Shown here one piece after another: positions 1 to 33,119 of a stretch of 40,573 nucleotides of DNA (position 1 is the first letter of the stretch; each line of letters begins with the position of its first letter). This stretch comes from Anaerostipes sp. (lineage in GTDB: Bacteria; Bacillota; Clostridia; Lachnospirales; Lachnospiraceae), in the NCBI GenBank assembly GCA_028704435.1, contig JAQWFL010000024.1, forward strand, positions 1 to 40,573, read 5' to 3'. The notes below the pieces were generated by a model. That model saw nothing but the letters and a program-made list of their open reading frames with translations. It was not told where the DNA came from and did no database searches. The translations under genes and the position numbers were made by a program.

Positions 1-725
1 CATCTCTTTTTATTCACACTGACCTGCTCTCTTTCAATGTTATTCTCTAAAGTACGAAGAGCTTCATCCACCTGTCCTGTAGACTGTAGCGACTTAATGA
101 CCGTACAAAAAGCGGAAATCTCACCATTACTAAAACTCATTTCCAGTTCATCTAAGCAATCATTTAAGCTTCGTCCACCATCCAAATCATTTCTTAACCT
201 CATAAGTGCTGTCTTTAGTCTCTTATTTTCCACCACAATAACCGCATCCTTTAGAGCATCTGCGATATACTGACCACCTCTTTTACCATAGAGAACGGAT
301 CGGCTCATCTCCATAATGTCTGGCATCATCTCATCATTAGAAGATCGGTTCTGTGCTCTTAAGATGATATCTAAAAAAAACCATCCAAGTATTGCAACCA
401 CAACGCTAATTGGCTTTGCCATCTCAAACTTTAATATTCCTTCTGTAATAAAGAAACATATCATTCCAAACAGTCCTGCCATCATTCCCTTATATAAATA
501 CCACTGGCTTACCGTCATCTGGTCTTTTAAGAGAACGCCCGCTCCCATCTTTTTTAACGTAAGCTGCTTGTTTGCAAAGAACTTTCGTACAAAGGAAGAC
601 TGTTTGATTTTGTCCATCTTCTTTTTCGCTTCCTTGGCAGGTGTTGTACCATGAATCAGATACACGATTCCCTGTACAAAGGAAAACACTAGAATAAATA
701 ATAATGCTACGAATAATCCTATCAA
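1..725 (-). CDS. TadC-like type II secretion F-domain membrane protein (3' part missing)
   Basis: The frame opens at a TTG at 723-725, eight bases after an AGGAGG (734-739), and continues through base 1, so at least 241 residues are present and the C-terminus is outside the window. The only nearby ATG gives an immediate stop, which favours TTG. Residues about 2-24, 79-95 and 103-122 are hydrophobic. After them comes a cytoplasmic helical region (DIMEMSRSVLYGKRGGQYIADAL near 136-158, then a repeated helical pair ending in ALRTLENNIEREQ) typical of the T2SF domain of TadC. In Tad/Flp systems TadB and TadC form the inner-membrane platform that works with the CpaF/TadA ATPase. It starts 14 bases after the preceding TadB-like gene, so the two are co-transcribed. 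The family assignment is good; assignment to TadC rather than TadB rests on order. Confidence 0.72.
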   Translation of the reverse strand, partial: MIGLFVALLFILVFSFVQGIVYLIHGTTPAKEAKKKMDKIKQSSFVRKFFANKQLTLKKMGAGVLLKDQMTVSQWYLYKGMMAGLFGMICFFITEGILKFEMAKPISVVVAILGWFFLDIILRAQNRSSNDEMMPDIMEMSRSVLYGKRGGQYIADALKDAVIVVENKRLKTALMRLRNDLDGGRSLNDCLDELEMSFSNGEISAFCTVIKSLQSTGQVDEALRTLENNIEREQVSVNKKR

Positions 726-739
726 TCCATCTTCCTCCT

Positions 740-1693
740 TTACTTATCCGTCTTAAACATCTTGATTCCTACCATCAGATACAACAATCCTGTGATAAGA
801 AGAAGTGCCTGTCCTGCCATATTTCCAGTTAAACTTCCCTTAACATCAATGCCAAGTCCTGCGCCAATAATCCATACGATAATCACAGCCGTAATGGAAA
901 TCACAACAAGCGTCAGCTTCATAGAAAATAAAATGTTCTTTCTGTCTTCTCTTGCGGATAATCCCGCTGCCACCTGGCTCATCATCTGTGCCAATACCTC
1001 TTCATAATTTGCCTGATAATGCATACAGTTCTTAAGGTTAATAATGATGGTCTGTAACTGTCTGTTCTCCACTGATTCCTTCATATAGTCAAATGCAATA
1101 TCTACATTTCCTGTATTCTCTGCATCCTGCACAAACTTCTCTGCAATACCTCTTAGCACTCCGTTTAGAGATGAAATCGTGTTCTGCATGATGGATACAA
1201 TATCACTGCTTCCTTTGGCATGATTGGATAGGATGGATATAAATATCGCTGTCTGATCTTCAATCTGGTTATAAGTCCTTCCAGATAATCCAATGGCAAC
1301 TGCATAAAGAACAACTGCCTGCGCCACTGCGAGAAACAATGCCACAAACACATTCTGAAAGATTATTGTTCCTTCAAAGAATCCTGCAACTGAAAGTACA
1401 ATCTCTACGCATAAGAATACTTCTCCATTTACAAAGGGAAGTACATTCTTAATCCCGCTCAGTAACATCAGTCGGTCTAGCTTATAAAGAATCGAATGAT
1501 TCTCAATTGCACCAAACTTCGTTACAAACTCTGCTTCCGATAGTACCTTTAAATCTACATTGTCCTTATATTTCTTAACGACTTTTCCCCAGACATTGTT
1601 TTCTACAAATCTCTTATGAATCAGAAAAATCAATAAGAAACTGAATAGAAATATACAGCCCCAGGGAAGCCATCTTAATACTTCTTCACTCAT
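740..1693 (-). CDS. TadB-like type II secretion F-domain membrane protein
   Basis: A 317-residue protein with hydrophobic segments near residues 8-25, 91-108, 113-135, 259-281 and 293-311. A cytoplasmic helical domain (about 140-255) ends in a conserved-looking stretch, VLAQMMSQVAAGLSARED, just before the last membrane pair. This layout is that of T2SF proteins such as TadB, the platform subunit of Tad/Flp pilus machines. The ATG start is directly adjacent to the stop of the upstream unknown gene (1694) and the stop is 14 bases before the TTG of the TadC-like gene, so the three form one transcription unit. No CpaF ATPase or pilin gene is within the window. They may lie to the left, or the ATPase may have been lost with the DNA replaced by the restriction cassette. 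Function in a pilus or a secretion machine is inferred. Confidence 0.75.
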   Translation of the reverse strand: MSEEVLRWLPWGCIFLFSFLLIFLIHKRFVENNVWGKVVKKYKDNVDLKVLSEAEFVTKFGAIENHSILYKLDRLMLLSGIKNVLPFVNGEVFLCVEIVLSVAGFFEGTIIFQNVFVALFLAVAQAVVLYAVAIGLSGRTYNQIEDQTAIFISILSNHAKGSSDIVSIMQNTISSLNGVLRGIAEKFVQDAENTGNVDIAFDYMKESVENRQLQTIIINLKNCMHYQANYEEVLAQMMSQVAAGLSAREDRKNILFSMKLTLVVISITAVIIVWIIGAGLGIDVKGSLTGNMAGQALLLITGLLYLMVGIKMFKTDK

Positions 1694-2581
1694 TTACTGT
1701 GTCCCTCCTTCTTCTCCACCAGAATCGGTGATTGTCTCTGTATTATCCACAGGAAGCGATACGCCAATGTTTACATCTCCTGGATCTGAACTTTCATCTA
1801 CGCTTGGCATCCTGTCTGGATCACTTGGATCGTACTTGACCGTACCATCTTCGTTATACAAAATGATTGGATCATTCCAGTCAATCGCTGCATCATAGGC
1901 TTCGCCATTGTATTTCTTTGCATCTGCATCCGATACATAACGGAAAAGACCAACGCCATTAACAAAGTAATAACCTGACTTAAAATACTCTGGAATCTGA
2001 ATCATAATGAAGTTACTGTGCATAAATTCATAATCGTAACTCACAAATCGCTCCAAGCTGCCAAAGCTGTGAATGTTCGCTTTTAGGTTGTAATCTTGGT
2101 AGTATGTTCCTGTGTAGAATTCACAAGTATAGGTCTTGTCCTTCTTTAGTCCAAGAACAGTTCCGCCATCGGACACATTCTTTTCATCCACCTTGGTATT
2201 ACCTACCTTATCCAAATACAATCTTGTGATAATATCAATACTTGTAAGCTGTGCTGCATCTGATTTCGTATCAATGTAATACTTATAATCATCCTCATCT
2301 ACATCTGCATAGACCAGATAATAATGACCGCCCTGATCGGCTTGCATATTTGAAACTCCAATGGTGTATCCATAATCTGCGAATCGTTCAAATACAATCG
2401 AGCTTGGCACTTCCGTACTGGATACATACACCAGACAATCGGAACTTGTGACTGTTGGAATGTTTCCATCTGTGTCTGAATCCACCCAGATGCTTCTTGG
2501 ATACTCCGTCACTTCCTCTAGTTCCTTGTTCTTGAAGTTGTAATCTCCAGTGATGCAGGTAAAGAACACATCCTTACCCAC
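1694..2581 (-). CDS. Protein of unknown function, probably 5'-truncated at a recombination junction
   Basis: 295 residues from a GTG at 2581. The same frame stays open upstream to about 2660 inside the end of the neighbouring endonuclease-like gene, without an ATG and with only a distant AGAGGA. There is no signal peptide or membrane segment. The protein is rich in Asp, Tyr and Gly, and the C-terminal 40 residues are acidic and low complexity (Pro/Asp/Ser, ending GGEEGGTQ). I do not recognise a domain. Its place directly before two Tad-like genes, and its secreted-looking composition, suggest the C-terminal part of an extracytoplasmic component of the same machine whose N-terminus was lost when the restriction cassette arrived. 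Base composition returns to the higher-G+C level of the Tad genes here. It may not be translated at all in the present configuration. Confidence 0.55.
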   Translation of the reverse strand: MGKDVFFTCITGDYNFKNKELEEVTEYPRSIWVDSDTDGNIPTVTSSDCLVYVSSTEVPSSIVFERFADYGYTIGVSNMQADQGGHYYLVYADVDEDDYKYYIDTKSDAAQLTSIDIITRLYLDKVGNTKVDEKNVSDGGTVLGLKKDKTYTCEFYTGTYYQDYNLKANIHSFGSLERFVSYDYEFMHSNFIMIQIPEYFKSGYYFVNGVGLFRYVSDADAKKYNGEAYDAAIDWNDPIILYNEDGTVKYDPSDPDRMPSVDESSDPGDVNIGVSLPVDNTETITDSGGEEGGTQ

Positions 2582-2589
2582 ATCCGAAC

Positions 2590-3855
2590 TTAGATCCTCT
2601 TTGATATCTGCTCCATCATGATGCCATACATGCTCTTGTTCATCTCTTCACGTTTTTCCACGTCAATTTCAATATCTGTTCCTTGTTTTCTCATTTCTAA
2701 AATCTTATATACATAACTTCTCAATATTTGATCTCTTTTTAAACTTGTAAACATTATCTCATCGCCTAAATTAACATGCTGGTTTCTCAAATTTCCTTCT
2801 TGTAAAACAAACATTTTACTTCCATCAACCGCAGTCACAACCTGATCAGAAACTGCTAATGGTTTAATTTGGTTAGTAATATATTTACTATCCTTCTCGT
2901 AATATACTAAATTATAAACCTCTTTTAACTTGTATTTTTCAAATACTTCTTCAATAAATGCATGCGGTATAATTGCATCATATTCCTTTTTATGTGCTAT
3001 TTTTATCTTATTTCTCTGTGTTACGATTGAATCTAGTAAAATATAGTTCAGAATCGACAATTTTACTCTGTTTCTAACATCCTTTTGAACCAACTTATCG
3101 TAATAATTAGCATATTCATAATATCTTTTTTCTCGACTTGTTAATGTAGCCTGATTAGTCGTTTTGACAGTGCTCAGTACTTTTGAATACGCTTTCCATG
3201 CTTTCTGCATATCATTCGGAGGCAAACGGAATAAACGCTTTACCTCATATCCTGAAAAGTTCATTCCTTGTATCGTATAATAAAATTCATCATTATCAAA
3301 TGAAAATAATGCATTCAGATTATTGTTTTTATTTGTTGGCTCTTTTATTGTATCAATGATATTTGAAAAAAAATATTTAATGCTATCCATTGGCTCTTCC
3401 GCCAAATCATCATGTACTATTCCACAGGCGTCACATTCTAGCTGACTATCTAAACATTTTTTTACAACTGAAAACAAGAAAAACTCAATTACAAATGGAA
3501 TATCTTCAGACAAGCCACTAACACTAATATTAGGTTGGGACATTTCATCGATTATTCTATTATTGTCATAGTACATGATTTTCAGAAGCATCTCTCCATA
3601 TTTTGTGATTTCTTCATTCTTATTAAGAACTCCCATTTTTCTCAATGCTTCTATATATTGATGTGCTATCCCCTTATCATGCATTGCAACTCTTTCAAGA
3701 TTTTTGCAAATATTTGTTATTGCTTTTGCACCCGTGTTAAAAAAAGAAATATGACGTAACTTAAAGTTACCTTTTTGATTTCTTGGTATCAGTTCTTCTG
3801 GTTCAAAGATTGCATCTAATAGATCCAACTCATCTGCAGCTATCCACATTTCCAT
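2590..3855 (-). CDS. Putative restriction endonuclease of a two-methyltransferase R-M cassette
   Basis: 421 residues; not recognised by motif. It is the last gene of a tightly overlapping operon with an HTH regulator and two D12 adenine methyltransferases. Its ATG overlaps the stop of the second methyltransferase (TAATG), with a GGAGGT just upstream. That position is where a cognate type II endonuclease is expected. Residues about 55-95 look like a winged helix (HQYIEALRKMGVL then ITKYGEMLLKI), which could be a DNA-recognition module. I see no secure PD-(D/E)xK, HNH, GIY-YIG or PLD signature; a lone CDAC pair is near residue 143. The last 40 residues are encoded by less AT-rich DNA than the rest, so the original C-terminus may have been fused to flanking sequence. 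Alternative: a non-nuclease accessory protein. Confidence 0.5.
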   Translation of the reverse strand: MEMWIAADELDLLDAIFEPEELIPRNQKGNFKLRHISFFNTGAKAITNICKNLERVAMHDKGIAHQYIEALRKMGVLNKNEEITKYGEMLLKIMYYDNNRIIDEMSQPNISVSGLSEDIPFVIEFFLFSVVKKCLDSQLECDACGIVHDDLAEEPMDSIKYFFSNIIDTIKEPTNKNNNLNALFSFDNDEFYYTIQGMNFSGYEVKRLFRLPPNDMQKAWKAYSKVLSTVKTTNQATLTSREKRYYEYANYYDKLVQKDVRNRVKLSILNYILLDSIVTQRNKIKIAHKKEYDAIIPHAFIEEVFEKYKLKEVYNLVYYEKDSKYITNQIKPLAVSDQVVTAVDGSKMFVLQEGNLRNQHVNLGDEIMFTSLKRDQILRSYVYKILEMRKQGTDIEIDVEKREEMNKSMYGIMMEQISKRI

Positions 3856-5153
3856 TACCTCCTTGCATAAAATAATAATTCATCTATCATTTTCTTATGT
3901 CCACCACTTTGACTTTGATAATTTTTTCTTTTTATAGTTGATGGATCTTTATCATAATATGAAAACCCTTCAACATTTTTTAGTATATTAATAATTGCAT
4001 CTCTTCCCTCAAATGATGCTTCCTTTTTTCCATGGCTCCAATGATTATTTTCATCATAATAACTAATCAACACATGTCTGGATTTGGTATCGTCTATCAA
4101 TTCTGTTAATGCTCTCACAAATTTATCTTTATAACAATATCTAGAATTGAAATTATCATCCATATTTTGACCTCTTACAAATTTAAATTCAGCAGCATAT
4201 TTAAGTAAATCATCAATATCGCAATATTTTGCTATAAAATTCAACATATGATAATATGCCGAATATTGTCTGAAATTGTATGGCGGATCAATATACAAAA
4301 CGGATTCACTAATGTCGATATTTTGAAACTCATTTTTCTTATATAATTCATTAGCGTCTTCCCTAAACACAATGTACTTTTTTTCTTCATCGAAAATATT
4401 AAACATAATAGGTTTAAAATAAAGTTTTGCTTCTGCATTAGGATATAATTTACTTCTATTGAAATCGTGAAAAGTGCCGTTAACATTGGCATTCAACGTC
4501 ACTTCCTCAATAATACACGCTAACAGAATATATTTTTCTAAATCAGTTATCAAATTGCTATTTGCCCATTTCTTAATTAAGCACAAACTTTTTCCTAATT
4601 TTTTTGCATTCTCTTCTGAAAAATAATTCCTTTTACCTATTGTTCCTCTAGCACTTTTATATGTCGATTGACTTCCCCAAACCGTATAATAATCAAAAAA
4701 TAATGCTTCTTCTTCTGATAAATTTTCTAAGCTTATTCTATTAAGATACTGTAATACTTTCAATAAAGGCTCAATGTTCTGATCAAAATTTATTTTTTGA
4801 TAATACCCTTCCTCAAAAATCTTATCAGCTTCTATTTTTCTCTGTATATACAACTTGTCTTTATTTAAATCTTCTTCTGAAACAACAAATGAACTAAACT
4901 CGCTTTCATTTATTAACTTCTCAAATGAAGGAAACTCATTGTTTTCTAAATATGCCTTTCCTAAAACATATGAGAATTCATTAACATCATTTGATATAAC
5001 ATCAAATCCTCTTTGTTTAAAATACTGGGAAACATTTGTAGTTCCAGCAAACACATCTATAATCAGTCCATCTGATATGCCTTTTTCCTCCAAAAATTCC
5101 TTAATACCATCAACAATAACTTTTTTATTTCCTATATATTTATCCATATACAT
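3855..5153 (-). CDS. D12-class DNA adenine-N6 methyltransferase (second of pair)
   Basis: 432 residues from an ATG at 5151-5153 that overlaps the upstream methyltransferase stop as TGATG. A TTG 12 bases further upstream would give 436 residues and is less likely. The N-terminus has the D12 pattern DKYIGNKK, then the AdoMet-binding motif I variant IIDVFAGTTNVSQYF at about 30-45, and the catalytic motif IV DPPY at about 289-292 within VLYIDPPYNFRQY. A long insert of about 240 residues between the two, larger than in Dam, probably carries target recognition. Such enzymes methylate adenine N6. The frame is strongly AT-rich compared with the genes on either side of the cassette, which points to horizontal acquisition. 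Paired adenine methyltransferases often serve asymmetric sites, one enzyme per strand. Confidence 0.85.
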   Translation of the reverse strand: MYMDKYIGNKKVIVDGIKEFLEEKGISDGLIIDVFAGTTNVSQYFKQRGFDVISNDVNEFSYVLGKAYLENNEFPSFEKLINESEFSSFVVSEEDLNKDKLYIQRKIEADKIFEEGYYQKINFDQNIEPLLKVLQYLNRISLENLSEEEALFFDYYTVWGSQSTYKSARGTIGKRNYFSEENAKKLGKSLCLIKKWANSNLITDLEKYILLACIIEEVTLNANVNGTFHDFNRSKLYPNAEAKLYFKPIMFNIFDEEKKYIVFREDANELYKKNEFQNIDISESVLYIDPPYNFRQYSAYYHMLNFIAKYCDIDDLLKYAAEFKFVRGQNMDDNFNSRYCYKDKFVRALTELIDDTKSRHVLISYYDENNHWSHGKKEASFEGRDAIINILKNVEGFSYYDKDPSTIKRKNYQSQSGGHKKMIDELLFYARR

Positions 5154-6544
5154 CAATAATGGCAAATAAACAATAATTCACCATCATCTAATTCCTTCCT
5201 ATTTGAATTTTTACTACTAAGTTTTCTATATCTATGCGAAATATTTCTCATCTTGACATTAGGATAATTTTTCTTTAACAATTCCATTAATTCCACTTTA
5301 CTTACAACTCTTTTCCTCGTATCCTGATTATCATCTGAATCAGAATAACTCATAATAATATTGGCTCCTGTACTAGAAATAGTTTCAATTAATTTTTCAA
5401 ATTCCATTTTTCCTTTCGATGGAATACAATAATTAGATTGAAATCTATCGTTTCTATATCTTCCATTCATCAGATAAATCTTTCCATTATATTTCTTTTC
5501 TTCTAGTATAGGATAATCATATTTAACCAATGTTTCCAACACATGATAAAATCGAGAATAATGATCAATAGTATATGGAGGATCTAAGTAAAAAGTGTCT
5601 GCCGCTTTTATTTCAGTTATTTCAATTGCTTCAAACGAATCCAATGTATATGCTTTGTTGCTATCAGAATAAATTTTCCTTCTTCTATTAAGAATTTCTA
5701 ACATCTCTTTAAAAGGATCTTCAATTTTAAGTTTTCTATCTCTCATACATCTATTTATTGCAAAAGTTTTAATTTTTCCAGAACCATCTACTACCTTTAT
5801 CGGTTGAGCAAAATTTTTACCAACACTGCTAACAATTTCTGATACTGCATGAAGTAGGCATACCATTAAAATTTTTTTTGTTACAGAATTTTCAGTACTA
5901 TTTGTTTCAATCATATCGATTGCTTTTCTAATTGAATCTATTTCTATACATTGTTCAACAGAAAAGTAGCTGTTTGAATAATACAAAGTAAATAGTGCAT
6001 AAATATCTCTATCATTTTTAAATTTTTCTATAGATTCATCTGTAAACATATTTATGCTTTCGCCAAATATTTTTTTTAATTCGTCTCTTGATGTATCTGA
6101 GATATTTTCCCCGTTATAAAACACATTGCATTCACATAATTTGGCAAGTAATTCTGTATCATTATTTTCAATAACTTGCTGTTCATATTCGAGAATATCT
6201 TTAAAATATTTACATAATTCGTCCTTATTATTTTTATATGCCTCAGAATTAATTAAGTCATCATAACCGATTAGTGACCTACTATTCTTTATTAATACAC
6301 CTGTAATCAAGCTGCTATATTCCTGGACATCATTTGCTATTACGCGATAACTATCTGCCAAATAGCTTGAAACGACTCCGGTTCCTGAGAATAAATCTAC
6401 AACAGTTCCATGCTCCGGAGTAATTTTCTTTATCTCTTTTTCAATCGCATCCAAAATATTAACTTTACTTCCTAAATACTGGATAACTCTAATTTTTTCT
6501 TTCACATTAATGCTCCGTTTATTTATTTTAATTTCTTTTTTCAT
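5153..6544 (-). CDS. D12-class DNA adenine-N6 methyltransferase (first of pair)
   Basis: 463 residues. N-terminal IQYLGSKVNILDAI (about 21-34) corresponds to the D12 start motif, followed by motif I VVDLFSGTGVVSSYL at about 48-62 and motif IV TFYLDPPYTIDHYSRFYH with DPPY at 321-324. The long middle region is presumably the target-recognition part. It resembles the second methyltransferase in architecture but the two are quite divergent in sequence, so they are not a recent tandem duplication. The ATG at 6544 lies inside the end of the HTH gene (17-base overlap) and the stop overlaps the next ATG, so expression is probably translationally coupled along the cassette. Predicted role: protective methylation of one strand of the recognition site. 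Confidence 0.86.
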   Translation of the reverse strand: MKKEIKINKRSINVKEKIRVIQYLGSKVNILDAIEKEIKKITPEHGTVVDLFSGTGVVSSYLADSYRVIANDVQEYSSLITGVLIKNSRSLIGYDDLINSEAYKNNKDELCKYFKDILEYEQQVIENNDTELLAKLCECNVFYNGENISDTSRDELKKIFGESINMFTDESIEKFKNDRDIYALFTLYYSNSYFSVEQCIEIDSIRKAIDMIETNSTENSVTKKILMVCLLHAVSEIVSSVGKNFAQPIKVVDGSGKIKTFAINRCMRDRKLKIEDPFKEMLEILNRRRKIYSDSNKAYTLDSFEAIEITEIKAADTFYLDPPYTIDHYSRFYHVLETLVKYDYPILEEKKYNGKIYLMNGRYRNDRFQSNYCIPSKGKMEFEKLIETISSTGANIIMSYSDSDDNQDTRKRVVSKVELMELLKKNYPNVKMRNISHRYRKLSSKNSNRKELDDGELLFICHY

Positions 6545-6924: not shown

Positions 6925-7350
6925 CTATTCTTCAATTCTTCTCACCCTCGGCTTCTGTTGATTCTTCCGATCCAACCAAGGTATTGTTGCATTTGCAAAT
7001 ACCGCCAACTCCATAAATCCGAAGAATGCCACGATAACAACTTTTAATATAATTCTTACAATATCATTTCCTATATAATCTGCGAATACCCAAAACAATC
7101 CAGTAAAGATTATCACACCTGCGATACATGGAACTGCAGCAACGATTGGCATATAGCTTAACGCACAATACAGAACAACAAATGCTGCACAGATTCCAAA
7201 TGTCATCCACCAACTTGCATCAGGGAATAACTTTTGATGAAGCGGAATGCTCCACACAACTGCAGGCACTATATTTATCAATGGAATCTTGTAATTCTTA
7301 TCATATGAGTTTGTCTTAATGTCTTCTACAATATACTTTGCCATAATCAT
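6925..7350 (-). CDS. Small four-helix integral membrane protein of unknown function
   Basis: 141 residues with hydrophobic segments around residues 23-40 (weak), 47-66, 68-92 and 98-121, a short charged N-terminus and a basic tail (WLDRKNQQKPRVRRIEE). The start ATG at 7350 overlaps the reconstructed stop of the upstream broken gene as ATGA, which supports the longer MIMAKYIV start over the internal ATG six bases later. No catalytic motif is visible and I do not recognise a family. Genes of this size and topology are common in conjugative or plasmid-type operons, so a role in the transfer or Tad-like machine is possible but unproven. Confidence 0.7.
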   Translation of the reverse strand: MIMAKYIVEDIKTNSYDKNYKIPLINIVPAVVWSIPLHQKLFPDASWWMTFGICAAFVVLYCALSYMPIVAAVPCIAGVIIFTGLFWVFADYIGNDIVRIILKVVIVAFFGFMELAVFANATIPWLDRKNQQKPRVRRIEE

Positions 7351-7750: not shown

Positions 7751-8755
7751 CTAATTCATTCCATACATATCGTGTCGTACTTCTGAATTGTAATAATGGC
7801 TTATGGTATTAGGCGCATTATAGAGAGCTGTAATCAAGTAAGCCTTAATATTAGCAACCTTAGTTGTGTTCTTTTCCATACATCCAATGACATACTGCAA
7901 GTGAGATGAATTCAGTTTTAAGAATTTACTCTTAACCAGACTGTATGGATATTCTTCTCCTGCGATTCTAATTGTCTTACGAGGAACACATACAACATCA
8001 CAGATAATCTGATACAGTTCATCGTACATGTCTCTGTCATTCCACTGATAATTAGACATCATAATGTCATACTCAATGTTGTCTCTGATGATTTCCATGT
8101 ATGCAGATGCCTGATCCATCTCATCCACCTGCTGATAAGATTGACTGATAGGATTAGTATTACTCAATATATTATTGTTCTCTTTATTATTCGGGTGTAA
8201 TAATTCCCCCAGTACCGTGGTAGTTTCTTCACTGGTTTCGTCCACTATTTTACGCTGGCGAAAATTATCCTCTGGTGAATCAGCTTCACTGGTGCCATTT
8301 ACACACTGGTGTATTTTTTTCACTGGTTCCATATCTTCACTGGTGTTATTAGTATCCTGGCGAACTTCTTTCACTGGTGTTTTGCCTGCACTACTCTTAT
8401 CTTCTGATACAAAGTTTTTCACATAGATAACATTAGCCACACCGGTCTGTTTTACCATATCAATTAAGCCGATATTCTCTAATTCTTTTAGCAACACACC
8501 TGCAGTTTTTTTGCTTACATTTAAGTCCTCTTCAATATTGTTTAGAGAATACTTGATGAAGACCTTATTGTCCTCATCAAGCCATCCTCTTCTCTTGGAA
8601 AGAGACATTCGATCAAGCATCAGACCGTAGAGAAGCTTTGCGTTATTAGACATATCCTTAAAGCGTTCATCTGTAATCAACGCCTTTGGTAATCTATAAA
8701 ACGTAAACTGCTCCGATTCTCTTCCATAATAAAAATCAAGCTCCAACTTCTCCAC
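7751..8755 (-). CDS. repA: RepA_N-family plasmid replication initiator
   Basis: 334 residues from a GTG at 8755 that overlaps the parB stop (TAGTG) behind AAGGAGGG. Residues about 16-110 match the RepA_N pattern: FTFYRLPKALITDERFKDMS, AKLLYGLMLDRMSLSKRRGW, and then a winged-helix stretch with DLNVSKKTAGVLLKELENIGLI. A low-complexity linker (about 120-200) is where the DNA carries iterons. The C-terminal domain (about 215-334) is smaller and less conserved, as is usual in the family. RepA_N proteins initiate theta replication of many Gram-positive plasmids and are also carried by ICEs. In the plasmids that have been studied the origin lies inside rep, consistent with the repeat array seen here. 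Co-transcribed with parA and parB. Confidence 0.9.
   Translation of the reverse strand: MEKLELDFYYGRESEQFTFYRLPKALITDERFKDMSNNAKLLYGLMLDRMSLSKRRGWLDEDNKVFIKYSLNNIEEDLNVSKKTAGVLLKELENIGLIDMVKQTGVANVIYVKNFVSEDKSSAGKTPVKEVRQDTNNTSEDMEPVKKIHQCVNGTSEADSPEDNFRQRKIVDETSEETTTVLGELLHPNNKENNNILSNTNPISQSYQQVDEMDQASAYMEIIRDNIEYDIMMSNYQWNDRDMYDELYQIICDVVCVPRKTIRIAGEEYPYSLVKSKFLKLNSSHLQYVIGCMEKNTTKVANIKAYLITALYNAPNTISHYYNSEVRHDMYGMN
8228..8386. repeat. 17-bp iteron array inside repA, probable replication origin
   Basis: The nonamer TTCACTGGT occurs exactly at 8228, 8285, 8319, 8336 and 8370. Degenerate copies keep the same phase at 8251, 8268, 8302 and 8353, with a weak one at 8387. From 8251 to 8370 the copies start every 17 bases without exception (8251, 8268, 8285, 8302, 8319, 8336, 8353, 8370); all keep the CTGG core. 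A period of 17 is not a multiple of three, so the protein sequence does not show the repeat and protein-level selection cannot explain it. In RepA_N plasmids the initiator binds iterons located within its own gene, which is what this arrangement suggests. Confidence 0.85.
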
Positions 8756-9651
8756 TAATTATGCCCTCCTTTCTCTTTCCACTCATCCAATAACTTCACA
8801 ATAATTGTTTCAATATCTTCGTTACTCATATTGGGTTCAAAATATGAATCCAATCTTTTCTGATTAAATACCACCTTACGAACTGCAGCTTTCTTATAGC
8901 TCATGATTTCTCTTAACCATTGCTCATTAAAAAGCCCTTCCTTTACTGCGTTCTTAATTCTTGCTGATTGCTCCATATTAACGAATACACCAATCTCATT
9001 CATAACACGATATACTACTTCCTGCTGTTCTGCAGATATAAAGGATAAATCTACACCTTGCGCAATTCCAAGTTTTTTCATATCAATGCATTCTAACAGT
9101 TCATCTGACAGATTTGATAAGTATATAAGTCTCTGAATCGTCTTACAGCTTTCTCCTGCAGAATCACTCATTTCTTGCAGTGATAATCCACCAGTTGCAC
9201 CCTGATGTTTCATTGCATCGTATTTCATGCGGTAAGCCTTGGCTTTCTCACTTATAGATATATCTTCTCTCTGAATATTGGCATCAACCATAATCACAGT
9301 TGCTTCATCATCATTACAGTCTTTAATCATAACTGGCATTGTTTCCAGTTCAGCCAGGGTTGCCGCATGGTGTCTACGGTGACCTGAAATCAGTTCATAG
9401 CCACCTTCTGCACGAACTCTTACAATGGCAGGAACAAGAATGCCATACTGCTTTACACTTTCAACCATTTCTTCCATCTTGTCATCATCTAAGACTTTAA
9501 ATGGATGATTCTTGAACGGATGAAGCTCACTAAGAGCCACATCCTTAATTTGTTCACCTTGCCCCTGTACTGCATCATCCTCTGGTTCAGACCCAAACAT
9601 ATCATCGTATTTGGATAATACAATCTTTTCTCCTAAGTTTCTCTTACTCAT
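8755..9651 (-). CDS. parB: ParB/Spo0J-family partition protein
   Basis: 298 residues from ATG 9651, nine bases after a GAGGAGG. A TTG nine bases upstream is in frame but lacks correct spacing. The ParB N-terminal domain is clear: a VALSELHPFKNHPFKVLDDDK lead-in, then ISGHRRHHAATLAELETMPVMI (about 90-111) in place of the GERR box that binds CTP in this family. Next comes NIQREDISISEKAKAYRMKYDAM, and an HTH region around LSLQEMSDSAGESCKTIQRLI. The C-terminus would mediate dimerisation. It acts with ParA to segregate the replicon or stabilise an ICE. The start overlaps the parA stop by eight bases and the stop overlaps the repA start, so parA, parB and repA are translationally coupled. Confidence 0.88.
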   Translation of the reverse strand: MSKRNLGEKIVLSKYDDMFGSEPEDDAVQGQGEQIKDVALSELHPFKNHPFKVLDDDKMEEMVESVKQYGILVPAIVRVRAEGGYELISGHRRHHAATLAELETMPVMIKDCNDDEATVIMVDANIQREDISISEKAKAYRMKYDAMKHQGATGGLSLQEMSDSAGESCKTIQRLIYLSNLSDELLECIDMKKLGIAQGVDLSFISAEQQEVVYRVMNEIGVFVNMEQSARIKNAVKEGLFNEQWLREIMSYKKAAVRKVVFNQKRLDSYFEPNMSNEDIETIIVKLLDEWKEKGGHN

Positions 9652-10426
9652 GGCTGACAACCTCCTCTACTAACTGTTCGTATGCCTTTGCTACTTTACC
9701 TTTTGCATCATGTGTATATATGCTAACACCTGCGGCTGGCATCTCTGCTGCTCTTACTGACATTGGAATTACATTATCAAAGATATGAATATCCTTTGCA
9801 TACGCATTGTAAACAACATCAATAATGTCATTTGCATAATTGGTTCTGTAATCAACCATTGTAAGCAAGATACCCATGATATGAAGTTTTGGGTTCATCT
9901 TTCTTTTTACCCTACTGATTGTCTTAAGCAACTGCTGTAAGCCCTTAATTGGCAGATAAGCAGGTTGTACGGGTATGATAATCTCATCTGCAGCTACAAG
10001 TGCATTCAATGTCAACTGACCAAGGTTTGGAGAGCAGTCAATTACAATATAGTCATAGCGATCTGCAATCATTTCGATATAATCCTTTAAGACAGTCTCA
10101 CTACTCATAATTCCGATTAAGGATGTTTCTACACCTGCTAACTCAATATTGGCAGGCATAAGGTCAACACCCTCTTTGTGATGAAGAACTCCTGCATCAA
10201 GACCAAAATCATCTTCATTCAATACCCACTCCATAATATTGGATAATGTTACATCTAATTGATCTGGTTGCTGATAGCCTAACGCCTCTGTAAGAGATCC
10301 CTGGGGATCGTTGTCAATAATCAATACCTTTTTACCTAATCTTGCCAAACCAATTCCTACATTGATTGTTGTGGTTGTCTTTGCGACTCCACCTTTCTGA
10401 TTTGCACATATAATAACTTTACTCAT
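9644..10426 (-). CDS. parA: ParA/Soj-family partition ATPase
   Basis: 260 residues. The N-terminus has the deviant Walker A motif QKGGVAKTTTTINVGIGLA (about 10-28), a second motif IDNDPQGSLTEALGY (about 37-51), and a Walker B-like DYIVIDCSPNLGQLTLNAL (about 124-142). It lacks an N-terminal HTH extension, so it is a Soj-type ParA rather than a P1-type one and should not autoregulate through its own DNA-binding domain. It binds DNA non-specifically in the ATP form and moves ParB-bound DNA. The AAGGAGG before ATG 10426 lies inside the end of the 59-residue DUF3970-like gene, one base separating stop and start. It is the central gene of the rep/par operon of the element. Confidence 0.92.
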   Translation of the reverse strand: MSKVIICANQKGGVAKTTTTINVGIGLARLGKKVLIIDNDPQGSLTEALGYQQPDQLDVTLSNIMEWVLNEDDFGLDAGVLHHKEGVDLMPANIELAGVETSLIGIMSSETVLKDYIEMIADRYDYIVIDCSPNLGQLTLNALVAADEIIIPVQPAYLPIKGLQQLLKTISRVKRKMNPKLHIMGILLTMVDYRTNYANDIIDVVYNAYAKDIHIFDNVIPMSVRAAEMPAAGVSIYTHDAKGKVAKAYEQLVEEVVSHE

Positions 10427-10427
10427 T

Positions 10428-10607
10428 TTACTTGTCCTCCTTAAATTCTACTTTTTTGATTTCTGCATACATTCTGTAATATTTATTAGTTCCTTTATTC
10501 GTATAGATTTCTGACATCTGAATGACTTCTATCTGTGGACTGCTTTTCAGCAATCCACAAAACCACTCTATATATTCCTTTGTCCCTTGCAATCTAACCT
10601 TTAACAT
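10428..10607 (-). CDS. Small DUF3970-like protein
   Basis: A 59-residue frame starting MLKVRLQGTKEYIEWFCGLL at 10607 and containing YTNKGTNKYYRMYAEIKK, which fits the pattern I know from the DUF3970 family of short proteins found on Gram-positive plasmids and ICEs. The start lies 14 bases inside the end of the DUF6075-like gene and the stop is one base before the parA ATG, so it sits in the rep/par operon. It is easy to miss because of its length. Its biochemical role is unknown; the conserved basic and aromatic residues could suit nucleic acid or protein binding. Confidence 0.75.
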   Translation of the reverse strand: MLKVRLQGTKEYIEWFCGLLKSSPQIEVIQMSEIYTNKGTNKYYRMYAEIKKVEFKEDK

Positions 10608-11052
10608 ATAACGCCTCCCAATCTACATAAGAGCAATACTCTGGATATCGAATCTTAATTGCCTCCCAAAAGTATCTTACATATCCACTGCAGAATATTT
10701 CTTCCACTGTGTACTGACGACACTCTGTTAATTGCTGCTCGTGTTTCTTATAATCATCTACACTCGGTGTTCCATTGCAATATAGATTAAAAGCCATTCT
10801 GATTACTTTGACACTTCCACTGGTATTCCATCCTTTTTTCAGGCATTCCGTCTGAACACATCCAGTCTGGAAATTATAGATTTCCTCAACATGATTTCTT
10901 GTATCCTCACTGATGCCGAGGCAATATACCAATGCTTTGTGATATACATCTTGATATCTACACTTCTGCATCCATTCCTCATAGAATTCTCGGTGACTTT
11001 CATTCTTAAAATTGATTGTTTCTTTTTTTGCACTTAACGCTGTGTTATTCAT
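10594..11052 (-). CDS. DUF6075-like protein, first gene of the rep/par operon
   Basis: 152 residues from ATG 11052 (MNNTALSAKKETINF), which has AGGAGC at the right distance. The frame is open upstream to 11139, but that extension runs through promoter-like repeats and has no ribosome binding site. Features include a DVYHKALVYCLGISEDTRNHVEEIY stretch at about 42-65 and a C-terminal FWEAIKIRYPEYCSYVDW, which match my recollection of DUF6075 proteins found beside parA on clostridial elements. Function unknown. It is soluble, with several Cys and Tyr and no membrane segment. It heads the operon, directly behind the phased repeats. Confidence 0.7.
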   Translation of the reverse strand: MNNTALSAKKETINFKNESHREFYEEWMQKCRYQDVYHKALVYCLGISEDTRNHVEEIYNFQTGCVQTECLKKGWNTSGSVKVIRMAFNLYCNGTPSVDDYKKHEQQLTECRQYTVEEIFCSGYVRYFWEAIKIRYPEYCSYVDWEALYVKG

Positions 11053-11073
11053 ACTTATTAGCTCCTTTCTGAC

Positions 11074-11131
11074 TTCGTATAAATTTCGTATACAATATCG
11101 CAATTCTCGTATACATTCTTTGAATATACGA
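11074..11131 (-). promoter_or_regulatory. Promoter and phased operator-like repeats before the rep/par operon
   Basis: CGTATA occurs at 11076-11081, 11087-11092 and 11108-11113, and inverted as TATACG at 11125-11130. Spacings of 11 and 21 bases put the direct copies on one face of the helix. The last two copies form an imperfect palindrome (11107-11131). On the minus strand TTGCGA (11098-11103) and TATACG (11076-11081) are separated by 16 bases and make a plausible promoter whose -10 is one of the repeats. A bound protein would therefore both mark the site and repress the operon. Confidence 0.55.
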
Positions 11132-11137
11132 TGGAAC

Positions 11138-11178
11138 AAAAAAGGACCTTCCCTTAGAATTTTTCTAAAGGAAAGTCC
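11138..11178 (-). terminator. Rho-independent terminator reading away from lysS
   Basis: On the minus strand a 16-base-pair stem (11144-11159 with 11163-11178) with a three-base loop and two G-U wobbles is followed by six T residues (11138-11143). The wobbles pair only on the minus strand, which fixes the direction. It would stop transcripts arriving from lysS before they enter the rep/par operon. Confidence 0.85.
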
Positions 11179-11180
11179 CT

Positions 11181-11328
11181 ATTTTCGTTAATCTTTATCC
11201 TGTTTTATTCAAAGCTATCCGTCAGTTGAGCCCATAATTCTTCATCTCAAATTACGAATTTGTTGTAGTAAGCGTTGTAGTAAGCACCTTACTCAACCTC
11301 GCAAACCCTTGATTTTACTGGCTTTCTA
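11181..11328. other. Probable attachment-site region at the lysS 3' end
   Basis: This 148-base stretch from the terminator to the lysS stop holds no convincing gene. It joins core chromosome to plasmid-type genes and contains a tandem 12-bp repeat (11262-11285) of the kind that integrases use as arm sites. The crossover sequence probably includes the last codons of lysS or the bases just after its TAG at 11326-11328. No tRNA gene is present. The matching second copy was not seen inside the window, as expected if the element extends to the left. Confidence 0.45.
11262..11285. repeat. Tandem direct repeat, 2 x 12 bp
   Basis: GTTGTAGTAAGC occurs twice head to tail with no spacer, 41 bases beyond the lysS stop codon. 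It may be an integrase arm-type binding site, or simply a local duplication. Confidence 0.8.
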
Positions 11329-12804
11329 CTTGTCTAATGACTTCATCGTCGGGAATAGTAATACATCTCTAATTGCAGATGAATCTGTAAGTAACATTAC
11401 CATTCTATCAATTCCGAATCCAATTCCACCAGTTGGAGGCATACCTACAGATAAAGCATTCAAGAAGTCTTCATCTGTTGTATTTGCTTCATCATCACCT
11501 TGTGCTAACAATTCTTCCTGTGCCTTAAAACGCTCTCTTTGGTCAATTGGATCATTTAACTCAGAGTAAGCATTGGCCATCTCCCATCCATTCATAAAGA
11601 ACTCAAAACGTTCTACATATTCAGGGTTCTCAGGCTTTTTCTTTGTTAATGGAGAGATATCTGTTGGATGATCCATAACAAATGTAGGTTGGATTAAATG
11701 TTCTTCTACATATTCTTCAAAGAATAAGTTTAGAATATCACCCTTCTTATGGCGATCTTCAAATTCAACATGCTTTTCCTTTGCAATGGCTCTTGCATCT
11801 TCTAATGTCTCGATGGTATTCCAGTCAACACCTGCGTATTTCTTGACTGCGTCAACCATAGTAATTCTCTCAAATGGCTGTTCTAAATCCATCTCAATCT
11901 CATTGTAAGTAATCTTAGCAGACCCAGTTACCTCAGTTGCAAGATAACGATAAAGATTTTCTGTTAAATCCATCATTCCATTGTAATCTGTATATGCTTG
12001 GTACAATTCCATCAATGTAAATTCAGGGTTATGTCTTGTATCAACACCTTCGTTACGGAATACACGTCCAATTTCATAGACTCTCTCTAAACCACCTACA
12101 ATTAATCTCTTAAGATATAATTCAAGAGAAATACGTAATTTTACGTCTTCACTAAGTGCATTGTAGTGAGTTTCAAATGGACGAGCTGCTGCTCCACCTG
12201 CATTGGATACAAGCATTGGAGTTTCAACTTCCATAAATCCTTCTCCGTCTAAGTAACGGCGAACTGCACTGATAATCTTAGAACGCATAATAAATGTCTT
12301 CTTAGAGTCTTCATTCATAATCAAATCAACATATCTTTGACGATATCTTGTGTCTGTATCTGTTAATCCGTGGAACTTTTCTGGAAGTGGCTGTAAACTC
12401 TTAGAAAGTAAAACTACTTCTGTTGCATGGATAGACTTTTCACCCTTTTGAGTTGTGAATACAGTTCCTTTGATTCCAATAATGTCACCAATATCCATCT
12501 TCTTAAAATCTTTATATTCTTCTTGTCCAATTTCATCTCTCGCAACATATGACTGAATCTTTCCTTGTAAATCCTGAATATTACAAAAAGAAGCTTTCCC
12601 CATGACACGCTTAAACATCATACGTCCAGCGACTGTGACTTCTTTTCCTTCTAATTCATCATAGTTTTCTTTGATTTCTTCTGAATGATGTGTCACATCA
12701 TACTTTGTAATCTCGAAAGGGTTCTGTCCACGCTCTTGTAGATCAGCAAGCTTGTCAAGACGAACCTTTACCAATTGATTCTCTTCATTCTTTTGTTGTG
12801 CCAA
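11326..12804 (-). CDS. lysS: Lysyl-tRNA synthetase, class II
   Basis: 492 residues, the usual length. An N-terminal OB-fold anticodon-binding domain (about 55-165) precedes the class II catalytic core with motif 2 (RVFRNEGVDTRHNPEFTLME near 252-271) and motif 3 (GGIGFGIDRMVMLL near 459-472). The protein charges tRNA-Lys with lysine in the cytoplasm. It starts 13 bases after the greA stop and shares its promoter. The C-terminus (LLFPTMKSLDK) is normal, so any integration at the 3' end has preserved the reading frame. Confidence 0.97.
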   Translation of the reverse strand: MAQQKNEENQLVKVRLDKLADLQERGQNPFEITKYDVTHHSEEIKENYDELEGKEVTVAGRMMFKRVMGKASFCNIQDLQGKIQSYVARDEIGQEEYKDFKKMDIGDIIGIKGTVFTTQKGEKSIHATEVVLLSKSLQPLPEKFHGLTDTDTRYRQRYVDLIMNEDSKKTFIMRSKIISAVRRYLDGEGFMEVETPMLVSNAGGAAARPFETHYNALSEDVKLRISLELYLKRLIVGGLERVYEIGRVFRNEGVDTRHNPEFTLMELYQAYTDYNGMMDLTENLYRYLATEVTGSAKITYNEIEMDLEQPFERITMVDAVKKYAGVDWNTIETLEDARAIAKEKHVEFEDRHKKGDILNLFFEEYVEEHLIQPTFVMDHPTDISPLTKKKPENPEYVERFEFFMNGWEMANAYSELNDPIDQRERFKAQEELLAQGDDEANTTDEDFLNALSVGMPPTGGIGFGIDRMVMLLTDSSAIRDVLLFPTMKSLDK

Positions 12805-23331: not shown

Positions 23332-24687
23332 TTATCCAAGAGTAATATTCTCTTCTGGATATTTCGCTAATTTCTTGTTTCCTCGAGTTGTAAATCCTAG
23401 TGCCAGCGACACTGGTCCTACTCGTCCTAAGTACATGGTGCAAATAATTACAATTTTCCCAATATCGTTTAAATTGGGCGTCAGTCCCTTGGTCAGTCCA
23501 ACTGTTGCAAGTGCCGATATAGATTCAAAACACGTTTCCATAAAATTTGAATCATTTGAAATAAGTATGAGTAAAATGGACGTCAACAATACTGTTAAAT
23601 TAACACAAATAATAGTAATCGCCTTTGGGAGAAAACTCTGTGCAATCCCTCTCTTAAATAAAATAACTTGCTTCTCTTGTTTTACTACCGCAATGACACA
23701 ACAAACTACAATTGCCAACGTAATTGTCTTAACTCCACCTGCAGTACCAACTGGGGAACCTCCAATAAACATGAGAATCATAGATATCAAAGACGATCCT
23801 TCTGAAAGGTTTGCCTGTGCAATAGATTCAAATCCTGCTGTTCTTGTTGTTACTGATTGAAACAATGAAGCTTGAATTTTATGCCACAAGGAATAGTCTG
23901 CCATGGTCTTTGGATTATTATATTCAAAAATAAAAATTAGAAATGCTCCGCCAAACACCAATACCATAGATACAACGATAACAATTTTGGAATGAAGAGA
24001 TAGTTTTCGAAAAATATCTTTCATTCGAATCTCTCTTTTCCATAATTGTTTGATAATATGCACACAGTCACGCCATACAATGAAGCCAAGTCCCCCAAGT
24101 GTAATCAATGCCATAATAGAAAAATTAATGACAGGATTAAATACATAGCTTCTCATGCTGTCTAACTTTACAATATCAATTCCCGCATTACAGAATGCAG
24201 AAACAGAATTAAAAACAGATGCCCATATTCCGTACTTCCATCCAAATTCAGGAACAAACTGTGTTGCCATAGCAACACTTCCCATCCCTTCTACAACCAA
24301 AACTCCTTGAAATATTCTTGCAATCAATTTTACAAGTCCCGACATTTCATTGAGTCCATATGATTCTTGAATCAGAATTCTCTCTCTCATAGTTACTCGT
24401 TTCCCAAGAATCAAAAGAAATCCCATAACCATAGTGATAACACCTAATCCACCAATCTGAATTAACAACAATATAACAACTTGTCCAAATAGACTCCAAT
24501 GAGCGACTGTTGGTACTGTAACAAGCCCCGTTACACATACCGATGTGGTTGCCGTAAACAATGCATCCACATAGTTTGTTGCAGTTCCAGATTTTGATGC
24601 AATTGGCAGGGTTAATAATAACGACCCTATTAATATAATCAAAAGAAATCCCATCAAAATAATCTGAACTGGTTTCAGTTTCTTCAT
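23332..24687 (-). CDS. ktrB: Potassium transporter membrane subunit KtrB/TrkH
   Basis: 451 residues with about ten membrane segments and four P-loop repeats. The filter-like segments are TTATSVCVTGLVTVPT, NSVSAFCNAGIDIV, SVTTRTAGFESI and SISALATVGLTKGL, with the gating-loop-like GGSPVGTAGGVKT between repeats. The length fits KtrB. Together with the adjacent KtrA it imports K+ coupled to Na+. A large antisense open frame exists on the plus strand across this gene, but the conserved repeats show that the minus strand is the coding one. Confidence 0.93.
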   Translation of the reverse strand: MKKLKPVQIILMGFLLIILIGSLLLTLPIASKSGTATNYVDALFTATTSVCVTGLVTVPTVAHWSLFGQVVILLLIQIGGLGVITMVMGFLLILGKRVTMRERILIQESYGLNEMSGLVKLIARIFQGVLVVEGMGSVAMATQFVPEFGWKYGIWASVFNSVSAFCNAGIDIVKLDSMRSYVFNPVINFSIMALITLGGLGFIVWRDCVHIIKQLWKREIRMKDIFRKLSLHSKIVIVVSMVLVFGGAFLIFIFEYNNPKTMADYSLWHKIQASLFQSVTTRTAGFESIAQANLSEGSSLISMILMFIGGSPVGTAGGVKTITLAIVVCCVIAVVKQEKQVILFKRGIAQSFLPKAITIICVNLTVLLTSILLILISNDSNFMETCFESISALATVGLTKGLTPNLNDIGKIVIICTMYLGRVGPVSLALGFTTRGNKKLAKYPEENITLG

Positions 24688-24710
24688 AACAATAACTCTC
24701 TCCCTTATTC

Positions 24711-24765
24711 ATCGCTTACCGCCTATAACGGCGGACGTTGTTTCGCATCCTCGCGGAGCATCTTC
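24711..24765 (-). other. G+C-rich structured leader upstream of ktrB
   Basis: A G+C-rich stretch in otherwise AT-rich surroundings lies 24-78 bases upstream of the ktrB ATG. It contains a perfect stem CCGCC (24719-24723) with GGCGG (24730-24734) and further short complementary pieces (CTC-CGC-GAG near 24753). It is in the ktrB 5' leader if transcription starts near 24775, where TATAGA lies. It does not match the c-di-AMP (ydaO) riboswitch by length or by its conserved segments. It could be a structured leader or a small repeated element. Confidence 0.35.
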
Positions 24766-24802
24766 TATATAATAACAATTCCCAAGGAATTTCTTATTAC
24801 AT

Positions 24803-24846
24803 AAAAAAGCAATCTGAATTCACACACATGAATAGACCGCTTTTTC
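24803..24846 (-). terminator. Terminator of pfkA
   Basis: Minus strand: AAAGCGGTCT pairs with AGATTGCTTT (two G-U), with an inner ATTCA/TGAAT stem, then six T residues (24803-24808). It lies 20 bases after the pfkA stop. Confidence 0.8.
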
Positions 24847-24866
24847 TATGTCAATATTACTCTTTA

Positions 24867-25856: not shown

Positions 25857-25907
25857 ATTATGTTTTCCTCCAAATTTAGTTTACCTTTATAATTTATAGA
25901 TACCATC

Positions 25908-25936
25908 ATTCTAATGCATTCATTTCTCTTTTTCAA
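25908..25936 (-). promoter_or_regulatory. Promoter of pfkA
   Basis: Minus strand: TTGAAA (25931-25936), 17 bases, TAGAAT (25908-25913); start near 25901 and a 45-base leader. Confidence 0.7.
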
Positions 25937-25941
25937 TAGTT

Positions 25942-33059: not shown

Positions 33060-33119
33060 ATAATCTGATCCTTTCTTAACTTATGATGCTGTGAGTTCTC
33101 CCATGCTTTCATCAAATCT

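Follow-up and report, generated by a model that had tools for sequence, protein, structure and literature searches.

A 17-bp iteron array inside repA as the probable replication origin of a lysS-flanking RepA_N element

The window analysed here, a stretch of 40,573 bases that constitutes the whole of contig C26 of its genome, carries a regularly spaced array of short repeats within the coding sequence of its repA gene. We propose, with a probability of about 0.86, that this array is the oriV of a RepA_N-type integrated element (an ICE or a derivative of one), located inside the gene of its own initiator. On the sequence evidence assembled below, it is very probably an in-gene RepA_N origin, read by RepA, on an element that flanks lysS and carries parAB, and of which some close relatives are conjugative. 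Our confidence is held at this level because the covariation between the protein and its putative sites covers only arrays with a 23-bp period. The first-pass annotation had read the segment as a replication origin hidden in the gene, and this reading is supported at the level of sequence by the repeat phase kept in homologues, by the covariation of helix and half-sites in 59 arrays of 23 bp and by the suppression of synonymous change in the linker.

Results

An array of eight plus two cores within repA

The repA gene (7751-8755, minus strand) encodes a RepA_N domain (residues 18-92), a disordered linker (123-211) and a DUF6017 domain (215-331). Eight iterons with a CACCAGTG-type core on the coding strand occupy 8253-8379 (minus strand) at exact 17-bp steps, the plus-strand CTGG cores lying at 8255, 8272, 8289, 8306, 8323, 8340, 8357 and 8374. 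Counted as nine-letter units they start from 8251 to 8370, with a further unit at 8228 (core 8232). The eight copies at exact 17-base steps were already described in the first-pass annotation, whose coordinates are right, and CCAG is present in 8/8 slots in the unit tables. Exact matches to TTCACTGGT number only five in the whole window (8228, 8285, 8319, 8336 and 8370), the remaining units being degenerate. The isolated exact copy reported at 8228 is equally real: its core, AACCAGTG (8230-8237, minus strand), stands 23 bp from the last 17-spaced core, and an extra core, TACTGGGG (8207-8214, minus strand; plus-strand core 8209-8212), is found another 23 bp beyond it. The layout is thus 8x17 followed by 2x23, with a weak ninth 17-step copy at the opposite end of the array (gene position 361). 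The two 23-spaced cores are followed by the AT peak at 8153-8192, the AT-richest 40 nt of repA (82% AT vs 63% for the gene), which is a candidate DNA unwinding element.

The array was evaluated by the best count of a 4-mer in eight equally spaced slots, over all periods from 11 to 40 that are not divisible by 3. In 400 synonymous-codon shuffles of repA this score was 3 (174 shuffles), 4 (177), 5 (42) or 6 (7), compared with 8 in the real gene, where CCAG occupies every one of the 17-bp slots. A score of 6 was attained nowhere else in the window (starts 8101-8419 left out). The motif search over repA suggested by the first-pass annotation therefore recovers the array, with CCAG in 8/8 slots against at most 6 in shuffles; the tandem-repeat search suggested with it does not, as Tandem Repeats Finder at score 30 left the array unlisted. 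DnaA boxes show no excess (58 found vs 63 expected). The 60 nt past the computed array end are AT-richer than the rest in 54/59 arrays of 23 bp vs only 1/8 arrays of 17 bp, and AT-richness straight after the array was dropped as a feature of the 17-bp class on the basis of this 1/8 at computed ends.

The repeat is constrained as DNA

The earlier statement that the period is not a codon multiple is correct, and the core is translated in all three frames, giving TSE (ACC AGT GAA), PVK (CCA GTG AAA), and HQC (CAC CAG TGT) or RQ (CGC CAG). Translated as in the last of these frames, the third, the consensus CACCAGTGA would become CAC-CAG-TGA, with a stop codon. Across the window and three relatives, TGA is found in 0/12 third-frame iterons vs 16/22 in the other frames, because the reading frame must stay open, which shows which copies have to deviate. 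Within the window the core columns agree at 0.89 and the spacer columns at 0.58. Cores are likewise better conserved than spacers between the window and L083 (0.89/0.68) or L085 (0.81/0.51); against the nearest relative, L078, cores (0.89) are no better conserved than spacers (0.93).

Of 18 hand-picked gene pairs, which share members, 15 show less synonymous change in the linker than in the domains (p<0.05); the exceptions are L022-L117, L141-L138 and L029-L080, the last being a pair whose iterons have themselves changed sequence. All 18 chosen pairs have more nonsynonymous change in the linker. Low synonymous and high nonsynonymous change indicate that the linker is loosely bound as a peptide and more tightly as DNA. 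Between the window and L078, synonymous changes amount to 6.0/57.2 sites in the linker and 58.0/139.0 in the domains (p 8.4e-6); nonsynonymous changes in the domains amount to only 5.0/572.0 sites, and the protein is therefore under purifying selection.

The period is kept in homologues

A match at E<=1e-20 was found in 142 of 397 genomes of the same family. The 440 ORFs retrieved include 92 with matches to both the N-terminal and C-terminal domains (NTD and CTD) and nine with a match to the CTD only, and 76 representatives below 90% identity were kept. The period was tested in 71 of them, five (L166, L135, L038, L183 and L182) being left out as they have no regex anchor; the window stands in this survey through L078, its 96% relative. 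The best period not divisible by 3 is 23 in 60 homologues, 17 or 34 in ten and 19 in one. With 200 synonymous shuffles for each gene, p<=0.01 was reached in 66/71 homologues, among them 58/60 of the 23-bp genes; those above this value are L020 (period 17, p 0.398), L084 (34, 0.159), L040 (23, 0.015), L105 (23, 0.264) and L133 (19, 0.617). In all ten representatives of the 17-bp clade, 17 is the best or second-best period and 34 the other, and eight of the ten have p<=0.01. A disappearance of the repeat phase in homologues was looked for and not seen, since 17 or 34 is kept in the clade and 23 in 60/71. In the likelihood tree (midpoint-rooted), the ten 17-bp genes form one clade (100/100) with the 23-bp genes around it. 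Because the 17-bp genes are a single clade within the 23-bp genes, it can most simply be supposed that the 23-bp spacing is ancestral and that the 17-bp spacing was derived once.

Eleven genes were scored for the 23-bp step that follows the 17-bp chain, whose end was defined loosely (4 of 6). A core with 5 or 6 of 6 matches at +23 from the chain end is present in the window, L071, L078, L083 and L085, the last chain unit of L071 being itself weak, and no such core is found in 6/11 genes (L084, L022, L117, L075, L118 and L020). By bare CYRG spacing, 23-bp steps are seen in L084, L117 and L020 as well.

RepA_N genes on five plasmids of other families served as controls, with 60 shuffles each. 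In-gene 23-bp arrays score above all 60 shuffles in the S. xylosus (51 vs at most 45) and Anaerococcus (61 vs 48) plasmids, the array of the Planococcus plasmid is marginal (41 vs 40), and none was found in the Lactococcus lactis and Lactiplantibacillus plantarum plasmids. The best period is also 23 in a 518-kb Monoglobus plasmid, in nine faecal contigs filed as phage and in the second RepA_N gene of this genome, L105 among these being not significant. An alignment search of viral contigs yielded 31 loci; the first viral-contig search, with P0001, confirmed nothing. In two loci (L038 1139-1477 and L041 2517-2852), an extra RepA_N-like N-terminal stretch (28-29% identity) lies directly upstream of a full repA.

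RepA and its recognition helix

RepA matches the Pfam families RepA_N (PF06970; E 5.9e-25, 87.4 bits vs a cut-off of 30) and DUF6017 (E 5.2e-42). Its AlphaFold (AF2) model has a mean pLDDT of 65 and a pTM of 0.41, with both ends folded, and pLDDT falls below 50 in segment 123-211, for which the array and the AT-rich stretch code. The NTD matches the solved RepA_N structures 4pql, 4pt7 and 4pta and the Rep-DNA complex 5kbj. A Foldseek search with the model gave eight matches at E<=0.001, all of them RepA_N N-terminal domains, and no solved relative of the C-terminal DUF6017 domain. The iterons thus lie within rep, between the parts coding for the NTD and the CTD, as is characteristic of the RepA_N family.

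The similarity of half-sites was compared with that of each 10-residue stretch of the NTD, the rest of the domain being controlled, in the 59 arrays with period 23 (86 stretches). The eight best of the 86 stretches start at residues 77-84. The best one, 81-90, has a partial Mantel r of 0.49 (p 0.001, uncorrected for the scan of 86 stretches), compared with a domain median of 0.05, and the best-covarying stretches coincide with helix 82-95 of the RepA model. By eye, and with exceptions, residues of this helix pair with half-sites: SKPT(C) with GTAAA, xQK with a GTG or CAC half-site, (R/K)DK with CGG, (R/K)EKC with GTTCG, and RNKA with GTCTA, GTCTG or GTTTG. One exception is L140, with KEKC and GACCG. 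Between L172 and L176, from a set of seven hand-chosen pairs that share members, 10/123 N-terminal positions differ, nine of them between 74 and 95 (printed segment), and their iterons differ. Short of a footprint, this covariation is the best evidence that the 23-bp arrays are RepA binding sites; for the 17-bp arrays, a reading by RepA would be carried over from the 23-bp arrays by homology.

Spacing and the wing

Dyad and consensus analyses covered 67 arrays at p<=0.02, the covariation analysis being restricted to the 59 of them with period 23. The 23-bp consensus is AGAAGTctGAAAAtCAaAcTTCA (lower case below 50%); it was seeded from a typed template and its pattern leans toward that template, a shuffled-column null being run alongside. 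Its best-kept columns are the outer AGAA and TTC, the central A-tract and the A of column 18 (62-90%), and the columns between the outer triplets and the A-tract vary more. Dyad symmetry is significant (p<0.05) in 52/59 arrays of 23 bp and in 3/8 of 17 bp, and is not so in L078, the representative of the window (p 0.10). The 17-bp consensus keeps the A-rich spacer and has no room for the outer triplets (6 bp).

The proteins differ in parallel. A wing motif, G-x-[GT]-[KRHL], is present in 60/60 proteins of the 23-bp type, in 0/10 of the 17-bp clade and in 4/6 unclassed ones. The mean net charge of the wing is +3.73 (range 1 to 5) in 23-bp proteins vs -0.60 (range -1 to 0) in 17-bp proteins, and the wing of the 17-bp clade is one residue shorter in the alignment. 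The solved RepA_N proteins have a basic wing as well, with N in third place (QKRQGLNKPN). With its period of 17 and no wing motif, the window therefore belongs to a sub-type separate from the 23-bp, basic-wing RepA_N-DUF6017 genes. Wing loss and 17-bp spacing are one evolutionary event on one branch, and their association is a lead and not a statistic.

A par-rep module beside lysS

Between repA and lysS lie, all on the minus strand, parB (8755-9660; ParB_N E 1.4e-20, TIGR00180 above cut-off), parA (9644-10426; AAA_31 E 1.2e-55) and a DUF6075 gene (10594-11139), which is the outermost element gene on the lysS side and has homologues beside lysS in G418, G420 and G026. On the other side, repA is followed by a small gene without a Pfam match (6925-7350, minus strand), whose homologue follows repA in G418 and G026 (80% identity). 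The presumed integration target, lysS (11326-12804, minus strand), ends in ...FPTMKSLDK, and the approximate junction between the element and the lysS 3' end is placed at 11295-11326 by matches to the lysS regions of genus relatives, which begin at 11295 (G398) or about 11338-11342 (others). G398 was considered as an empty lysS site, a reading dropped because of its weak matches to the DUF6075 region next to lysS. A perfect 12-bp tandem repeat, GTTGTAGTAAGC, occupies 11262-11285, at the element end beside lysS. In two genus relatives (L067 2-508, L068 3-488), lysS extends past FPTMKSL into a C-terminal domain, which we take to be a tRNA-binding domain and which the lysS of the window lacks; in G103, a free-standing ORF downstream of repA (L071 17745-18128) has 77% identity over 128 residues to this extra domain.

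Searches with G418 protein queries show that the par-rep module adjoins lysS in 8/11 loci of the 17-bp clade (window, G418, G419, G420, G096, G055, G026 and G103); in G082, G336 and G359 no lysS turned up in the parts searched (50 of 58, 40 of 83 and 39 of 97 kb). In 3/11 of these loci (G418, G419 and G103), genes for a relaxase, VirB4 and VirD4 share a contig, and G420 has a relaxase without VirB4 and VirD4. In the window, conjugation-module genes (T2SSF-like and neighbours; 1-2638, minus strand) are truncated at the contig start and run into cargo near 2638; their matches to three genes of G418 have 83%, 83% and 76% identity, and the T2SSF match is below cut-off. At about 2638, where methyltransferase cargo starts, the homologue of G418 3940-5046 is devoid of its first 47 residues. 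This join of conjugation genes and cargo is not seen in G418, and the copy is therefore rearranged or the assembly wrongly joined. The cargo at 3855-6544 consists of two adjacent D12-class adenine methyltransferase genes, beside a gene of unknown family (2590-3855). Elsewhere in this genome, contig C36 carries part of a VirB4 gene, at 80% identity, together with a VirD4 gene split by a 2.7-kb insert (L114 4240-6919), and no G418-type relaxase was found on the stretches of this genome compared with G418.

Possible element ends were observed on other contigs. A lysS-tip copy in G103 (83435-83498 in the joined stretch) has 78% identity to the tip in the window (E 2.7e-9) and comes after a tyrosine integrase gene at 82002-83234, recognised by its 49% identity to the C52 integrase, which was itself named by eye; with this copy as its end, the element would measure about 50 kb. 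The same G103 contig, C15 (L071-L116 joined), contains an 85% direct repeat of 458 bp (32944-33401 and 90859-91313), its copies about 58 kb apart and the first just downstream of lysS; this repeat speaks against a simple boundary and could mark another element boundary. Contig C52 has a second, diverged lysS 3' tip (51217-51275; L057 5218-5276) beside an integrase-like gene (L057 5456-6697), as well as a VirB4-like gene (24413-26707). This tip copy is possibly the other att end or belongs to a tandem element, and is a candidate part of the element in the window. The second RepA_N-DUF6017 gene of this genome (C16:8576-9472, L069), with its 23-bp array, shares its contig with a VirB4-like gene, and this locus is probably a second ICE.

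Discussion

The layout of repA resembles that of pSK41-type RepA_N theta replicons. The statement in the first-pass annotation that RepA_N plasmids carry origin iterons inside rep is borne out by pSK41, whose in-gene origin is documented: its Rep binds four Rep boxes inside rep, in the linker-coding part, the protein tolerates deletion of the linker, binding resides in the NTD and the CTD contacts DnaG (PMC5703833). The gene described here shares with this type the RepA_N winged helix, repeats in the linker-coding part, a presumably passive linker and a separate CTD (PMC5703833), but differs in its DUF6017 CTD, its mostly 17-bp core spacing, its uncharged rather than basic wing and its location on an integrated element. 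Most characterised RepA_N repeats are described as semi-palindromic and converging on a poly-A tract, and an integrated satellite, the Vibrio PLE, replicates through a RepA_N protein (PMC7145576). This phage satellite is likewise integrated, and its replication is driven from its own origin by a RepA_N protein that binds semi-palindromic repeats; the PLE repeats, however, are placed in NCR3 and not in rep, and PLE replication needs phage (PMC7145576). The consulted sections of another source describe RepA_N and ParA on ICEs of the Tn5252 and Tn1549 types, lysS as a streptococcal ICE target, and TnGBS1/2, which encode RepA_N and replicate before integration, replication aiding their maintenance (PMC4701971). 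The element of the window is similar to these integrated conjugative elements, thought to replicate as episomes, in its RepA_N and ParA genes and its presumed lysS target, but has a clostridial host, and an in-rep iteron array is not described for them in those sections (PMC4701971).

Computation shows the array, its constraint as DNA, the covariation with the recognition helix among relatives with 23-bp arrays, the fold of the RepA_N domain, ParAB, and the context of lysS and conjugation genes in relatives. From these we infer binding, unwinding, primosome recruitment, the mode of replication and the activity of the present copy. We hypothesise that RepA dimers would bind the repeats via the recognition helix of the N-terminal winged helix, and that RepA, assembled on eight tight (17 bp) and two loose (23 bp) sites, may open the AT-rich stretch next to them. 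Recruitment of the host primosome would then fall to the C-terminal DUF6017 domain, theta-type replication would follow excision of the element, and ParAB would keep the low-copy circle. The protein stretch encoded by the array would serve as a passive, disordered linker.

Several alternatives were weighed against this proposed origin. A repeat at the protein level or of chance origin, in the form of a low-complexity linker peptide or a decaying minisatellite, would agree with a linker that is disordered and fast-evolving as protein; neither 17 nor 23 is a multiple of 3, however, one DNA core encodes TSE, PVK, and HQC or RQ, and core columns within the window agree at 0.89 vs 0.58 for spacers. 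Protein repeat and chance array were accordingly rejected on the shuffles, the three-frame reading and the synonymous suppression, and retain a practically negligible probability. A role of the array as a centromere (parS) to which ParB binds is very improbable. The position of parB next to repA (8755-9660) and the likeness in kind between centromeres and repeated near-palindromes speak for it, but the 23-bp half-sites covary with the recognition helix of RepA, and the S. xylosus plasmid has an in-gene 23-bp array with no parB among the annotated genes of the 2.2 kb inspected. Binding of RepA to the array might also serve mainly to repress repA, as a transcription roadblock, with RepA being transfer-related or regulatory. 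Sites inside the very gene that RepA would regulate fit this idea, as does a speculation ascribed to Weaver et al. that chromosomal RepA_N proteins on conjugative transposons gained new activities (cited in PMC7145576). We nevertheless regard it as unlikely: the AT-rich stretch adjoins the array, parAB neighbours repA, the same in-gene layout is found on annotated plasmids (Monoglobus 518 kb, S. xylosus, Anaerococcus and, marginally, Planococcus), and replication helps to maintain the RepA_N-encoding TnGBS1/2, as stated in the consulted sections of PMC4701971.

The present copy could also be a fossil, the element having once replicated and now being dead. The conjugation gene cut near 2638, the VirD4 gene on C36 split by a 2.7-kb insert and the finding of no G418-type relaxase on the stretches compared favour this view, to which we assign a rather low though appreciable probability. 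On the other hand, the repA domains are under purifying selection in the comparison with L078, repA, parA and parB are open, and contig breaks may mimic rearrangement. Replication of the present copy appears likely from its sequence, with transfer genes that are split or rearranged in the assembly.

At the evolutionary level, we tentatively suggest a rebuilt origin in the 17-bp clade, a scenario that is possible but rather doubtful in its entirety. RepA would have lost its positively charged wing and the iteron its outer GAA/TTC triplets (6 bp), so that dimers could be packed every 1.6 helical turns on alternating faces. The two sites by the AT-rich stretch would have stayed at the ancestral spacing of 23 bp and would form an end specialised for melting or hand-off, and recognition-helix residues around 80-90 would constitute a readable half-site code, predicting incompatibility groups among gut ICEs and plasmids. 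A step of 17 bp corresponds to about 1.6 turns and one of 23 bp to about 2.2, from which packing on alternate faces may be surmised.

In-gene RepA_N origins and RepA_N-bearing ICEs are known, and the 17-bp geometry looks new in the open-licence literature searched. This novelty is provisional because the search covered open-licence papers by their titles and abstracts, in which no 17-bp class or helix code was found; no paper on DUF6017 was found in the same literature. The data are evidence, at the level of sequence, for a plasmid-type origin in a group of ICE-type elements from the gut. They also provide a natural protein-DNA series, in which the initiator and its sites lie in one gene and both spacing and specificity have changed, and with which the assembly of RepA_N on an origin and the exclusion between ICEs and plasmids therefore become testable.
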